Below are positions 19,535 to 26,656 of a stretch of 40,747 nucleotides of DNA, in pieces. Under the pieces are notes generated by a model. It saw only the letters and a list, made by a program, of their open reading frames with translations, had not been told where the DNA came from and did no database searches. Where the stretch lies: contig SXKQ01000089.1 of the NCBI GenBank assembly GCA_005778045.1, positions 1-40,747 on the forward strand. Reading direction: 5' to 3'. Numbering within the stretch: position 1 is the stretch's first letter; every line of letters starts with the position of its first letter. This DNA is from Planctomycetia bacterium (lineage in GTDB: Bacteria; Planctomycetota; UBA1135; GCA-002686595). Made by a program: the position numbers and the translations under genes.

Positions 19535-19553
19535 GCTCGCGAATGACGTGGGC

Positions 19554-21650
19554 TCAGCGCTTGGCGCGCGAGCCTTCGAGCTCGGTCACGAGCCGGTTGG
19601 TCTTGTAGACGTTGCGCAGCGATTCGAGGATGCCGCGGCTGTCGACGGACACCGAGCGCGACTGCACGTCCGAGTAGCCGTAGTTCCCGACCAGGCTCTG
19701 GATGTTGCCGTCGAAGATCAGGCCCACGACCTCGCCCGCGCGGTTGAACACCGGCGAGCCCGAGTTGCCGCCGATGATGTCGTGAGTCGAGACGAAGTGG
19801 AACGGCGTCTCGAGCTCGAGCACCGACTTGGCGTCAAGCCACGACTTCGGCAGGGCATAGGCCGCTTCCGTCGCACGTTCCTCGGCCTTGGCGTAGGCAC
19901 CGCCGAAGGTCGTGAACGGCTTCACGGGTGCGCCATTGTGCTCGTACCCCTTCACCGTGCCGTACGAGAGGCGCAGCGTGAAGGTCGCATCGGGGTACAC
20001 CTTCTCGCCCTCGACCGCGAAGCGCGCCGCCGCGATCTTGGCGTAGTTCTCGCGCTCGACGGACGTGACCTCGTCCTCCCACTTCTTGCGCATCTGGCGC
20101 GAGAAAGGATCGAGCGCGCGGGCGAGCGCGATCATCGGGTCCTTGCACGCGTCGACCACCGCCTTGCCGCCTTCGACGAGGCGCTTGCGCTCGGCGATGT
20201 CGAACAGCTTGGTGCCCTTGACGCACTCCTCGGCGCGCGCGCGCGGCGCGCGACCCGCGAGGGCTGCGAGCACGATCGGGTCGTTGCCGCCGAGCGTCTC
20301 GGCCATCCCGGAGAGCGCCATCTCGAGGCGCATCATCTCGAACTCCGGATACAGCGGCGCGGGCGAGTAGATCGCGTTCTTGAGCGCGTCGAGACCGGCG
20401 TCGCCGTACTCGCGCAGACGCTCGCCGCTCGGCTTCCCGAGCTCGTCCGCGAGGCGCAGGATGTCCTTGGCGAAGGTGAACGTCTCGGTGCCGAGCGACA
20501 GCGCACCCTGCCCCACCGCACCGTAGCGCGGCGCGAGGAGCGCGGCCGTGGCTTGGCCCTGCGCGATCTTCTCCCACGCGTCACCCCACTTGGCCTTCCA
20601 CTCGGGGTTGGCTTCCACGGCGGCGCGCAGCTTCTCCTCGGCCGTGCGCTTTTCCGCGAAGAGCTGCGGGTCGAGCAGCCCGGAGAGACGACCGACGTAC
20701 ACCTTGCGGCTGTTCTGCACGCTGAACAGATCGCCGCGGGCGATGCGCGCGTTCTCGGTGCTGCGTCCGGAGAACGTCTGCAGCCACACCTCGGCCCGCA
20801 TCAGGCGCGTGGTCGCGCGCGGCACCGCGGCATCGCGCAAGTACTCGAGGTGCGCGACCGTGTTCAGGCGCTGGGTGCTGCCCGGGTGGCCGGCGACGAA
20901 GCACAGCTCGCCATCCGCCGCGCCATTCGCGCTCCAGCGCAGGAAGTTCTCCGCCTTCAACGGCGCACCGTTCTCGTAGATGCGGAAGAACGTCGCGTCG
21001 AGGCAGTAGCGCGGGTACTCGAAGTTGTCGTTGTCGCCGCCGTAGAACGCCGACTGCGTCTCGGGCGCGAACACGAGTCGCACGTCCTCGAAGCGCTTGT
21101 ACTCGTAGAGGTGGTAGCGACCGCCTTGGTAGAGCGTTACGACCTCGCAGTGCAGGCCGCGCGCCCGCTTCGCCTCGTCTTCGATCTGCGTCTGCAACTT
21201 GCGCTTGGCGGCGCCAGCATCGGCCGTGCCGAGCCCCTTTGCGGCGCCCTCGATGCGCTCGGTGACGTCCGTGATGGTCCACAGCACGTCGAGGTGCAGG
21301 TCAGGACACTTGAGCTCGTCGGCGAGCCCCGCCGCCCAGAAACCCTTCTCGATCAGGTTGCTCTCCTTCGACGAGAGCTTCTCGAGGATGTCCGAAGCGA
21401 CGTGGTGGTTGGTCATCACGAGGCCGTCCGCGCTGACGATCGAGCCGGAACCGCCGGTCGAGACGCGCACACAGGAGCGCTGCACGTGCTCCATCCACTC
21501 GGGGCTGGCCTCAAAGCCGTGGCGCGCCTTCATCTCGGCGAGCGGCGGACGGTTGAAGAGCCACATGCCCTCATCAGCGCGCGCGGTGTGCGCGAGCGGA
21601 GCGAGGGTGAGCGAGGCGAGCAGCAGGCGGTGGAGCGGGAGGTGGAACAT
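19554..21650 (-). CDS. S46 family dipeptidyl-peptidase (DPP7/DPP11-like)
   Basis: This 698-residue exported serine peptidase of family S46 removes dipeptides from N-termini in the periplasm. It has a signal peptide (LLLASLTLAPLAHTARA), then EGMWLFNRPP, the catalytic His in VMTNHHVASD, the Asp in GGDNDNFEYPR and the Ser in IIGGNSGSPVF. Shortly after the Ser the sequence reads LIFDGNIQSL; the Gly there corresponds to the position that is Gly in DPP7 and Arg in DPP11, so hydrophobic rather than acidic P1 residues are predicted. Length is close to the family norm. These enzymes serve peptide feeding. It ends 61 bp from the convergent RlmN-family gene. Confidence 0.93.
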   Translation of the reverse strand: MFHLPLHRLLLASLTLAPLAHTARADEGMWLFNRPPLAEMKARHGFEASPEWMEHVQRSCVRVSTGGSGSIVSADGLVMTNHHVASDILEKLSSKESNLIEKGFWAAGLADELKCPDLHLDVLWTITDVTERIEGAAKGLGTADAGAAKRKLQTQIEDEAKRARGLHCEVVTLYQGGRYHLYEYKRFEDVRLVFAPETQSAFYGGDNDNFEYPRYCLDATFFRIYENGAPLKAENFLRWSANGAADGELCFVAGHPGSTQRLNTVAHLEYLRDAAVPRATTRLMRAEVWLQTFSGRSTENARIARGDLFSVQNSRKVYVGRLSGLLDPQLFAEKRTAEEKLRAAVEANPEWKAKWGDAWEKIAQGQATAALLAPRYGAVGQGALSLGTETFTFAKDILRLADELGKPSGERLREYGDAGLDALKNAIYSPAPLYPEFEMMRLEMALSGMAETLGGNDPIVLAALAGRAPRARAEECVKGTKLFDIAERKRLVEGGKAVVDACKDPMIALARALDPFSRQMRKKWEDEVTSVERENYAKIAAARFAVEGEKVYPDATFTLRLSYGTVKGYEHNGAPVKPFTTFGGAYAKAEERATEAAYALPKSWLDAKSVLELETPFHFVSTHDIIGGNSGSPVFNRAGEVVGLIFDGNIQSLVGNYGYSDVQSRSVSVDSRGILESLRNVYKTNRLVTELEGSRAKR

Positions 21651-21708
21651 GGGGTGTGAGAACGGGGCTCGGGACGAAGTGACCGGGGCGACGCGCAGCG
21701 CGCGCCCC

Positions 21709-22534: not shown

Positions 22535-22858
22535 ATGGACTCCCCTGCCCGCAAGTTGGTCCCGATCGTGGCGCTGACGGAGTTCCCGGTCGGCAGCGCT
22601 CGGGCGTTCGAGGTCGGTTCGACCACCGTGGCGCTGTTTCACACTGCCGAGGGGCTGCTCGCCATGGACGACCACTGCACCCACTCGGGCGGACCGCTCT
22701 CGGCGGGCAACGTGCGCGACGGGGTGGTGACCTGTCGCTGGCACGGCGCCGCCTTTCGCCTAGCCACGGGTCGCTCCGTGGGGGTGCTCCGCTGTCGTGC
22801 GTCCCGCACCTTCGCCGTGGCGGTGCGAGCGGGTTGGGTCGAGGTCGAGGAGCCCTGA
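22535..22858 (+). CDS. Rieske-type [2Fe-2S] protein
   Basis: This 107-residue single-domain Rieske protein resembles the ferredoxins of dioxygenase and nitrite-reductase systems. The cluster ligands are C-x-H in DDHCTHSGGPL and C-x2-H in VTCRWHGAAF. Flanking strands (ALFHTAEGLLAM, FAVAVRAGWVEVEE) fit the fold. It ends 1 bp before the threonine-synthase-like gene, so they are almost certainly co-transcribed, and its electron partner may be encoded elsewhere. No oxygenase is visible nearby. Confidence 0.9.
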   Translation: MDSPARKLVPIVALTEFPVGSARAFEVGSTTVALFHTAEGLLAMDDHCTHSGGPLSAGNVRDGVVTCRWHGAAFRLATGRSVGVLRCRASRTFAVAVRAGWVEVEEP

Positions 22859-22859
22859 G

Positions 22860-23993
22860 TTGGCCATCCTGCGCTGCCCCGCCTGCTCCGCCGAGGCCGC
22901 GGCCTCGAGCCGCGAGCTAGCTTGCTCCTGTGGCGAGCCCTTCGACGTCGAGCACGCCTTCCGCCTCGTGGGCCGCGAGACGTTCGACGCGCGCGGCCTG
23001 CACTCGCCCGCGCCCCAGAACAGCGGCGTGTGGCGCTTCCGCGAACTCGTCTACCCACGCTTCCCGTCCGAGGCCGTGATCTCGCTGCGCGAGGGCAACA
23101 CCCCGCTCTATGCGAGCGCCGCACTGAGCGAGTTCGTCGGGATCGAACAAGTGCACATCAAGCATGAGGGCCTCAACCCCACCGGCTCCTTCGCAGACCG
23201 CGGCATGACGGTCGCTGTGAGCCGCGCCGCGGCCAACGGCGCGCGCCACCTCGCATGCGCGTCGACCGGAGCGGCGGCCGCGAGCCTCGCGGCGTACTCG
23301 GCCGCGGCTGGATTGGCGTGCACGGCACTCGTGCCGAGCGAAGGCGCGCAGTCCGCCAAGCTCGCGCAGGCACGTGCGCTCGGCGCGCGCACTCTCGTGG
23401 TGCGCGGCGACCTCGAGCGCGTGCGAGTCCTCGCCCGCGAGCTCGCGCGCGGCGGCGCCTTCGAGCTCATGGACGAGCGCAACCCGTTCCGAATCGAAGG
23501 CCAGAAGTCGATCCCGTTCGAACTGCTCGCCCAGCTTGGCTGGCGCGCTCCCGACTGGATCGCACTGGCCGCCGATAGCCACGGCAACGCCATCGCGTTC
23601 GCCAAGGCGCTGCACGAAGCACGCTATTTCGGTCTCTCGGACCGGCTGCCGCGCCTCCTGGCGGTGGAAGCGGCCTGTGCGCACGCGAACCGCTCTCCAA
23701 GCGCCGAGCGTGCGGGCCGCGCGGTGGCGGAGACCCACGGGCAGTCCGTCGTCGTCTCCATGGAGCAGCTCGAAAGCGCCAAGCGCGCCATCGACCATGC
23801 GGGACTGGGCTGCGACCTTCCGAGCGCCGCAGGGCTCGCCGGCGCGAGAGAGCTCGTCCGCCGCGGGGGAATCGGCCCCGAGGAAAGCGTCGTGGTCGTG
23901 CTCGATAGCCACCTGCTCGCGCAAGACCGCGACGGCAGCGAGAGCGCTCTCGAGCCCGAGCTCGACGTCCTGCGTCGAGCCCTCGATACCTAG
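22860..23993 (+). CDS. Threonine-synthase-like fold-type II PLP protein lacking the PLP lysine
   Basis: This 377-residue protein has the architecture of the threonine synthase family: an N-terminal zinc-ribbon stretch (RCPAC...CSCG), the arch REGNTPLYAS, then the catalytic block, which reads NPTGSFADRGM. In real threonine synthases that position is TGSFKDRGM with the Lys that forms the PLP Schiff base; here residue 112 is Ala (codon GCA at 23193). Other PLP contacts are also changed: the STGN Asn is Ala (STGAAAAS), and 'TGHGLK' near the end is DSHLLA. It is likely a pseudoenzyme derived from thrC. The start is TTG 22860, 1 bp after the Rieske stop. Gene thrC is not assigned. Confidence 0.85.
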   Translation: MAILRCPACSAEAAASSRELACSCGEPFDVEHAFRLVGRETFDARGLHSPAPQNSGVWRFRELVYPRFPSEAVISLREGNTPLYASAALSEFVGIEQVHIKHEGLNPTGSFADRGMTVAVSRAAANGARHLACASTGAAAASLAAYSAAAGLACTALVPSEGAQSAKLAQARALGARTLVVRGDLERVRVLARELARGGAFELMDERNPFRIEGQKSIPFELLAQLGWRAPDWIALAADSHGNAIAFAKALHEARYFGLSDRLPRLLAVEAACAHANRSPSAERAGRAVAETHGQSVVVSMEQLESAKRAIDHAGLGCDLPSAAGLAGARELVRRGGIGPEESVVVVLDSHLLAQDRDGSESALEPELDVLRRALDT

Positions 23994-25381: not shown

Positions 25382-26656
25382 ATGTCTCCTACCCGCCGCG
25401 ACGAACGTTCTTCCTGCCCTGCCTCCCCCGACAAGCGCGAGCTCGTGACCAAGCCCGTCACCGAGATCGAGAGCCTCGACGGCCTGTTCGAGTCGGCGCT
25501 CCCCGCCTTTGGGGCCGCGTACTTGCGCCGCGTGTGGACCCTGCTCGACGAGGCCGTCGGCAAGGGCCTGCCGATGACGGTCTCGATCTCCGGGCCCGTC
25601 ACCGTATCCGGCCAGCACTACACGTGGCTCTCGCCGCTGCTCGAGACCGGCTGGTTCTGCCTCGTGTCGACCACCGACGCGGTCTGCTACCACGACGGGC
25701 ACCGCGCCCTCGACAGCGCGCGCAAGCACCCCTTCCACGAGGTTCCGATCTTCGGCGACGATGGCGCGCTGCGCGACGAGTCGATCATCCGCGTCACCGA
25801 CGTCGGCTTCGACGAGGACGTGCTGCTCGATCAGGATCGCTACCTGCGCGCGCTACTCAGACGGCCCGAGTTCCAGCGCAAGATGACGGGCACCGAGTTC
25901 CGTCACCTGCTCGGCAAGTACTACGCGGCGCAGGAGCGCAAGAACGGCGTCAGCGAGGGCCTGCTCGCGCAGTGCACGCGCCTTGGCCTCCCGATCTTCG
26001 TCGGCGCACCCGGCGACGGCAGCGTGTTCCTGAATTCGATGGCCTTGTGGGCGATCGAGCAGGCGAGCGGCGCCAAGGGCGACGCGCATCGTTTCGACCT
26101 CGACCTGCACGCCGAGGTCTTCGAGAGCTGCGCCTACCACTACTGGGGCATCACCGAGTCGGAGACGCGCCAGCTCGGCACGCTGATCCTCGGCGGTGGC
26201 GTTCCGAAGAACTTCAACCTCCAGCCCGAGCCGGCGCTGAGCCAAGTGCTCGGCCTCAAGGAGGTCGAGGGCTACCAGTACGACATCCAGATCACCACTG
26301 CGCCGGTCACCGACGGCTCACTCTCCTCGTGCCCGCCCGCCGAAGCCGTCACGTGGGGCAAGGTCGACAAGACGGTCTACAAGAAGACCACCGAGTCGAT
26401 GCAGTGCGACTACTCGATCGTGATGCCGTTCCTCGCCAAGGCCCTGCTCGACAAGCGCGCGCGCTTCGAGCGCTGGGCCGAGCGCATGGGCCGCGAGGAA
26501 CTCTTCAAGAAGCACCCCGCGGCCCGCGGCTACCTGCGCGACCGCGCCGGATACGGCCTCTTCCGCCGCCGCGACGAGCTCGTCGCCAAGCTCCTGAAGC
26601 GCGTGAAGAAGGAAGTCCCGCGCCTGCGCAAGGAATCCAAGTACCCACTGGCGTGA
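25382..26656 (+). CDS. Deoxyhypusine-synthase homologue (putative polyamine aminobutyltransferase)
   Basis: This 424-residue protein belongs to the deoxyhypusine synthase family. It keeps the NAD-binding segments FGAAYLRRVWTLLDEA and GPVTVSGQHYTWLSPL, the block ILGGGVPKNFNLQ, and the catalytic lysine in EAVTWGKVDKTVYKKTTES, equivalent to the human SWGKI lysine. Bacteria lack eIF5A, so such homologues are thought to transfer the aminobutyl group of spermidine or related amines to a small amine, making homospermidine-like polyamines; the acceptor is inferred. No polyamine gene adjoins it. It is divergent from the sulfotransferase and converges with the glycosyltransferase. ATG 25382 is used; a shorter start is possible. 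Confidence 0.88.
   Translation: MSPTRRDERSSCPASPDKRELVTKPVTEIESLDGLFESALPAFGAAYLRRVWTLLDEAVGKGLPMTVSISGPVTVSGQHYTWLSPLLETGWFCLVSTTDAVCYHDGHRALDSARKHPFHEVPIFGDDGALRDESIIRVTDVGFDEDVLLDQDRYLRALLRRPEFQRKMTGTEFRHLLGKYYAAQERKNGVSEGLLAQCTRLGLPIFVGAPGDGSVFLNSMALWAIEQASGAKGDAHRFDLDLHAEVFESCAYHYWGITESETRQLGTLILGGGVPKNFNLQPEPALSQVLGLKEVEGYQYDIQITTAPVTDGSLSSCPPAEAVTWGKVDKTVYKKTTESMQCDYSIVMPFLAKALLDKRARFERWAERMGREELFKKHPAARGYLRDRAGYGLFRRRDELVAKLLKRVKKEVPRLRKESKYPLA

Follow-up and report, generated by a model that had tools for sequence, protein, structure and literature searches.

Why would a gene for a threonine synthase-like protein be kept open and in frame once the lysine that anchors its cofactor has been replaced by alanine? 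This question is raised by an open reading frame (ORF) in a 40,747-nt stretch, hereafter the window, that corresponds to contig SXKQ01000089.1 of a Planctomycetia bacterium (assembly GCA_005778045.1). The ORF extends from 22860 to 23993 on the plus strand, begins with TTG and encodes 377 amino acids with zero internal stops. Its codon at 23193-23195, GCA, places Ala112 within the block NPTGSFADRGM, where the canonical motif TGSFKDRGM provides the lysine that forms the Schiff base with pyridoxal phosphate (PLP). All of these particulars had been given correctly in an earlier note on the same DNA, which considered the product a maintained pseudoenzyme. Our analysis suggests that a former PLP-dependent threonine synthase has been kept as a PLP-free binding or regulatory protein after other threonine synthases took over synthesis, a reading to which we assign a probability of roughly 0.6. 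Homologues with alanine or lysine at this position are referred to as Ala forms and Lys forms, and the features of the gene are as follows.

22860-23993, plus strand: Ala-form threonine synthase-like protein, 377 aa, TTG start, PF00291 (ORF, Pfam match, sub-threshold TIGR00260 score)
22860-23249, plus strand: residues 1-130 (N-terminal third), under the strongest constraint within the Ala clade (omega, i.e. dN/dS, 0.044 vs 0.159 in the rest)
22875-22931, plus strand: zinc-ribbon-like cysteines C6, C9, C22 and C24, invariant in 7/7 Ala forms; zinc binding putative
23193-23195, plus strand: GCA, encoding Ala112 instead of the lysine that forms the Schiff base with PLP (Lys in 45/45 Lys forms, alignment A3)
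23271-23273, plus strand: Ala138 in place of the Asn of STGN, reading STGA (alignment)
23574-23588, plus strand: former GNLGN loop, residues 239-243, reading DSHGN, first Gly (G239) lost (alignment)
23676-23702, plus strand: site of a deletion of ~26 residues, A-x-AIRIGxP segment gone (P0009 405 aa vs 377 aa)
23904-23921, plus strand: former TGHLLK motif, reading DSHLLA (T to D349, K to A354; alignment)

The lost lysine is accompanied by changes in STGN, GNLGN, TGHxLK and an Asn-Ser pair, all invariant in the Lys forms, which in fold-type-II enzymes presumably hold PLP and the substrate phosphate. The earlier note had recognized that the STGN and TGHGLK positions are altered, and they indeed read STGA and DSHLLA; further losses comprise G239, N205/S206, a replacement of glutamate by aspartate at window residue 319 and the deletion of ~26 residues. 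The changes at window positions 138, 239, 349 and 354 are common to all seven Ala-form clusters. Among 102 columns that are near-invariant in the Lys forms (at least 44 of 45), 59 were kept, 15 were changed in all seven Ala forms, 22 were mixed and 6 were deleted; the changed set includes, in Lys-form numbering, the PLP lysine, the STGN asparagine, the first GNLGN glycine, Asn-Ser 205-206, Glu345, Thr375 and Lys380. Near the old active site, S110, D113-T117 and K101-G104 are still invariant, and D349 is novel and fixed in 7/7. The window protein matches PF00291 (PALP) with 168.8 bits in Pfam, and its TIGR00260 score of 146.4 bits lies under the cut-off of 167.1, compared to 251.8 and 285.3 bits for the Lys forms P0009 and P0012. 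Set against threonine synthase (EC 4.2.3.1; PLP fold type II, TIGR00260), the Ala form is without the PLP lysine and the STGN asparagine, has altered GNLGN and TGHLLK motifs and the ~26-residue deletion, and scores below the family cut-off; it agrees with this enzyme in fold and does not qualify as one in its cofactor residues and score. Judged from its residues, the Ala form is a pseudoenzyme, in that it lacks essential catalytic residues of the homologous enzyme, and PLP binding and catalysis have probably been lost.

Alanine at this position is shared by seven clusters (P0002-P0008, P0002 being the window protein) with 41 member sequences, 67-90% identical to the window protein, and relatives from P0009 onward carry lysine. 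Combining two homology searches, from each of which the best 120 relatives were listed, we found lysine in 155 and alanine in 7 of the 162 listed homologues. Lysine in close relatives would have spoken against the earlier note; the nearest Lys form is 62-65% identical and belongs to a separate clade, and nearer relatives carry alanine. A profile built from the seven Ala clusters retrieved no eighth member, the scores falling from 716 to 577 bits. Among seven genomes of the genus (G001-G007), the Ala form is encoded by G001, G004 and G007 and the Lys form by G003, where it has the same flanking genes. By this synteny the Ala form is the orthologue of the Lys-form protein, hereafter ThrC-1. The two are alike in chromosomal place, in their 62-65% identity and in the Rieske gene that lies upstream also in G003; the G003 Lys form (cluster P0009) differs in that all motif residues are present and in that its C-terminal part has evolved more slowly, and its N-terminal part faster, than those of the Ala form. 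In a protein tree of a second homologue, ThrC-2, the three Ala-form genomes cluster apart from the other four (support 71; the G003 sequence is partial). The hosts of the Ala form are a group of lake bacteria that make up one clade within a planctomycete genus, and the data require no more than one loss of the PLP residues. In a pattern scan of 392 genomes of the phylum, a sample outside of which G003, G004, G006 and G007 lie, the Lys motif was detected in 33, and one genome (G001) had the motif with a codon whose first letter is not A, the scan being blind to non-Lys codons that begin with A and to motif variants. In a survey of 154 genomes of the class, ThrC-1 was present in 15 (E 1e-60 or better), three with the Ala form and 12 others; lysine was read in 10/10 examined of the latter, with G421 and G489 outside this reading.

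Is this gene maintained, or has it simply remained free of stops? In neutral simulations with 400 copies per setting, 6.5-11.5% of copies stayed open at GC 0.85 and 0-3% at GC 0.68 without indels, and 0/400 when 5% indels were added (GC3 of the gene is 0.79-0.90). The open frame alone is modest evidence, and it is the codon-rate test that counts. A codon-based maximum-likelihood (ML) analysis with our own script, using seven sequences (the window, G001, G004, G007, G003, G008 and G009), 367 codons and a fixed protein tree, yielded an omega of 0.116 for the Ala crown, 0.072 for the Lys branches and 0.076 for the stem. Forcing omega to 1 was rejected for the crown with twice the log-likelihood difference (2dlnL) at 349 and for the stem at 6.1 (p 0.013). 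Likewise, two young Ala pairs fitted alone gave 0.119 and 0.117 (p 2e-20 and 2e-30 against 1). The Ala form is maintained by strong purifying selection, which together with its conservation throughout the clade bears out the description as a maintained pseudoenzyme.

Within the Ala clade, constraint has moved from the C-terminal two thirds toward residues 1-130. Relative to all 45 Lys forms, four blocks of residues 1-130 were low in Ala-form diversity (each p 0.016 or less) and blocks 263-320 and 346-377 were high (p 0.033 or less), the others being intermediate. A similar pattern was obtained against 114 Lys-form pairs of similar identity, compared to which the four N-terminal blocks varied 0.24-0.54 times as much and blocks 131-208, 233-320 and 346-377 1.2-1.8 times as much. 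The pooled ratio of N- to C-terminal differences was 0.44 in the Ala forms and 1.32 in the Lys forms, and the Ala median of 0.43 was reached by 0 of the 114 Lys pairs, which share sequences. Moreover, codon ML with shared branch lengths gave omega values of 0.044 (N-terminal) and 0.159 (C-terminal) for the Ala crown and 0.081 and 0.067 elsewhere (interaction likelihood-ratio test (LRT) 46.7, p 8e-12). With the Lys form in G003 and, at the syntenic position, the Ala form in the window, G001, G004 and G007, the locus offers a before-and-after view of how a PLP enzyme may cease to be an enzyme, in which selection has measurably moved from the catalytic domains to the N-terminal third. As a separate matter, a DNA-level cause of the N-terminal conservation, such as an overlapping antisense ORF or signal, was considered and rejected, fourfold sites showing no difference between the two parts in six Ala-Ala pairs (p 0.22-0.68); among three pairs with G003, silent change was lower in the N-terminal part in two (p 0.078 and 0.03) and not in the third (p 0.74).

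The threonine synthase fold was predicted with high confidence for the Ala form. With a 52-row alignment AlphaFold modelled the Ala form at a pLDDT of 93.4, and with 45 rows the Lys form P0009 at 90.8. The top matches in structural comparison were solved threonine synthases; structures of this family are available from Arabidopsis (2c2b/1e5x), Thermus (1uim/1v7c), M. tuberculosis (2d1f) and B. subtilis (6nmx). For block 101-110 the pLDDT was 71 in the Lys form vs 95 in the Ala form, a difference in model confidence that may mean that the old cofactor loop is closed in the latter. The claim that the rest of the fold is intact holds as far as the predicted fold is concerned; it does not hold for the ~26 deleted residues, and constraint on the C-terminal two thirds is weaker than in the Lys forms.

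If ThrC-1 no longer makes threonine in these bacteria, which protein does? ThrC-2 was found in 7/7 genus genomes; the G001 copy exceeds the NCBIfam PRK08197 threonine synthase cut-off (464 vs 303 bits), and the motif PTGSFKSRGM is kept in six, the seventh being interrupted by a contig end. Within the genus only the three Ala-form genomes carry, in addition, a cluster of thrB and a third homologue, ThrC-3, of another lineage. Its motif GPTAAFKD is kept in 3/3, and the G004 copy is above the TIGR00260 cut-off (232.6 vs 167.1 bits). A second, intact thrC, the possibility of which the earlier note had raised, is in this way represented by both ThrC-2 and ThrC-3, with Lys motifs in all three Ala-form genomes. 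In G001 a fused aspartokinase-homoserine dehydrogenase (thrA) adjoins the thrB/ThrC-3 cluster, and no significant match to it was found in the thrB regions of G004 and G007. The other four genus genomes have a different thrB, mutually syntenic and 31-36% identical to the ThrC-3-linked one. The homoserine dehydrogenase domain PF00742 was not found in six of the seven genus genomes (G002-G007, 78-92% complete); a thrB match was obtained in all seven, the PF00742 gap notwithstanding. Among the 154 genomes of the class, ThrC-3 was present in 24, plus a weak match in G421 that falls on its own ThrC-1, and, this weak match aside, it was not found in the 12 other ThrC-1 genomes. We also observed that ThrC-1 (15 genomes) and ThrC-3 (24) are nearly mutually exclusive, the overlap consisting of exactly the three Ala-form genomes. 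In G421, G489 and G492, ThrC-1 and hom share a strand and lie ~1 kb apart, which fits a role of ThrC-1 in a thr operon there. It is plausible that ThrC-3 relieved ThrC-1 of threonine synthesis.

From these observations we infer the following order of events and a binding role. Threonine synthesis would first have been covered by ThrC-3, of the thr(A)BC type, and ThrC-2; the PLP-binding residues of ThrC-1 would then have been lost in a single event, in the ancestor from which one clade of the genus descends, and the protein would have been retained with its predicted fold unchanged. Selection would act mainly on the N-terminal third, with its zinc-ribbon cysteines, the stretch 37-104 and, at 105-130, what used to be the PLP loop and helix. 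The N-terminal face would contact a putative partner, be it a protein, a nucleic acid or a small ligand, and the old catalytic domains would serve as a scaffold. Several points weigh against this interpretation. The N/C ratios of individual Ala pairs range from 0.26 to 1.01, so that the shift is not visible in each pair, and the cut at residue 130 was picked after the regional profile, the codon test using the same lineages. Omega is higher in the crown than on the Lys branches (0.116 vs 0.072; 2dlnL 4.3, p 0.037), and the NG86 omega against G001, 0.276, places the gene fifth from the top among 19 in the window (one of the four higher values comes from a match at 53% identity that is possibly not orthologous), which indicates that the gene is less constrained than most of its neighbours. 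Neither the Ala nor the Lys form was found in G002, G005 and G006, hence the Ala form is not essential genus-wide. Finally, the overlap of the Ala form with ThrC-3 counts as a single event because the three genomes form one clade, and it covers G001, G004 and G007, with the window's own assembly outside this check.

Retention for another reason, or no retention at all, has to be weighed against the proposed binding protein. The Ala form might assemble with the active ThrC-2 or ThrC-3 of the same cell and tune its activity as a prozyme. Both potential partners with intact Lys motifs occur in all three Ala-form genomes, and a dead paralogue activates its active partner in trypanosomatid deoxyhypusine synthase, as described in PMC3663545. 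However, a Lys-form counterpart of its own was not found in G001, G004 and G007 (90-92% complete), ThrC-2 is only 31-37% identical, and an Ala-form query misses ThrC-3 at E 1e-3, which on similarity alone makes mixed dimers unlikely; we consider such a prozyme unlikely as well. Slightly less probable still is a new enzyme in which the same fold catalyses a different reaction, either independently of a PLP Schiff base or with non-covalently bound PLP. The well-predicted fold, the invariance of S110, D113-T117 and K101-G104 and the novel, fixed D349 would suit a new active site, but the residues expected to hold PLP are altered together, and blocks 131-160, 233-262 and 263-320, where the cofactor and substrate motifs used to lie, are 1.2-1.8 times as variable as in Lys-form pairs at a comparable identity level.

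That the gene is a relic whose function was lost recently, with stops still absent in a GC-rich genome, appears improbable. In its favour, as many as 11.5% of simulated neutral copies remain open at GC 0.85 if indels are disregarded (0/400 when they are included), evolution of the gene is quicker than that of most neighbours, and searches of three of the seven genus members did not find it. On the other side, omega is about 0.12 in both young pairs and differs from 1 with the p values given above, omega of residues 1-130 lies below that of the Lys forms, which is unexpected under decay, and the Rieske gene upstream lost its ligands (G007) or 46 codons (G004) while the Ala form kept its length. 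A decaying gene is rejected on the overall omega and, in addition, on the even lower value for the N-terminal third. An assembly or sequencing error at codon 112 can be practically dismissed, given seven clusters with 41 member sequences, Ala112 codons that differ among four DNA sequences (GCA, GCC, GCG and GCG) and matching losses elsewhere in the protein; the clusters and differing codons likewise refute a single-genome oddity.

With a PLP-free binding or regulatory protein as the favoured reading, known parallels include enzyme folds retained after loss of catalysis. Arabidopsis PDX1.2, a dead regulatory paralogue, reportedly acts together with a close active paralogue. The trypanosomatid deoxyhypusine synthase prozyme (PMC3663545) resembles the Ala form in its retained fold and also acts alongside a closely related active paralogue of the same cell, whereas here only distant ThrC homologues were found. 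Threonine synthase of Microcystis has a second role as a PLP-dependent, active threonine deaminase, for which the authors propose gene duplication and divergence (PMC12172450); it is similar to the Ala form in that a ThrC from an aquatic bacterium has taken on a further role, and unlike it in being PLP-dependent and active. A literature search at title and abstract level retrieved no description of a Lys-less threonine synthase or of a fold-type-II PLP pseudoenzyme. For annotation the case is a warning, since labels based on PF00291 or on names call such proteins PLP enzymes, P0008 being labelled 'pyridoxal-phosphate dependent enzyme'.

Does the gene directly upstream explain the retention? 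Its position is as follows.

22535-22858, plus strand: Rieske-type [2Fe-2S] protein with C-x-H and C-x-x-H ligands present, ending 1 bp before the TTG

The window, G001 and G003 retain all four cluster ligands. The G007 Rieske ORF (L033, 13735-14055, minus strand) is of unchanged length and free of frameshifts and has lost three of the four ligands, reading C-P-R and R-R-W-R, and the G004 Rieske ORF (L034) upstream of thrC-1 shows an in-frame loss of 46 codons that span the ligand region. The Ala form hence outlives a cluster-binding Rieske partner, and the Rieske partner is rejected as the reason for retention. Co-transcription with the Rieske gene, as suggested in the earlier note, agrees with the 1-bp gap in the window; a conserved functional pair is contradicted by the changes in G007 and G004. 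Decay of the Rieske gene itself is argued against by the G007 branch, on which omega was 0.138 (LRT vs 1, p 5e-4) and did not differ from that of other branches (p 0.68), although this branch is long and may span time preceding the ligand loss. Tentatively, and with somewhat less than even confidence, we regard the locus as a two-gene operon in which a ThrC displaced by another threonine synthase gene cluster has been re-used PLP-free through its zinc-ribbon third and the Rieske protein of one sublineage has also been stripped of its ligands with its frame open, both genes being kept. It is a speculation that the open upstream frame could serve translational coupling.

The start codon of thrC-1 is TTG in the window and G001, GTG in G007 and G004 and ATG in the G003 Lys form, each 1-2 bp from the Rieske stop. 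Long antisense ORFs face real genes at 22917-23924 (minus strand, 335 aa) and 19548-21659 (plus strand, 703 aa) of the window, known genes having been used as the training set for gene calling. Further downstream, at 25445-26656 on the plus strand, the window encodes a deoxyhypusine synthase-like protein (PF01916) that is 93-98% identical in G001, G003, G004 and G007.
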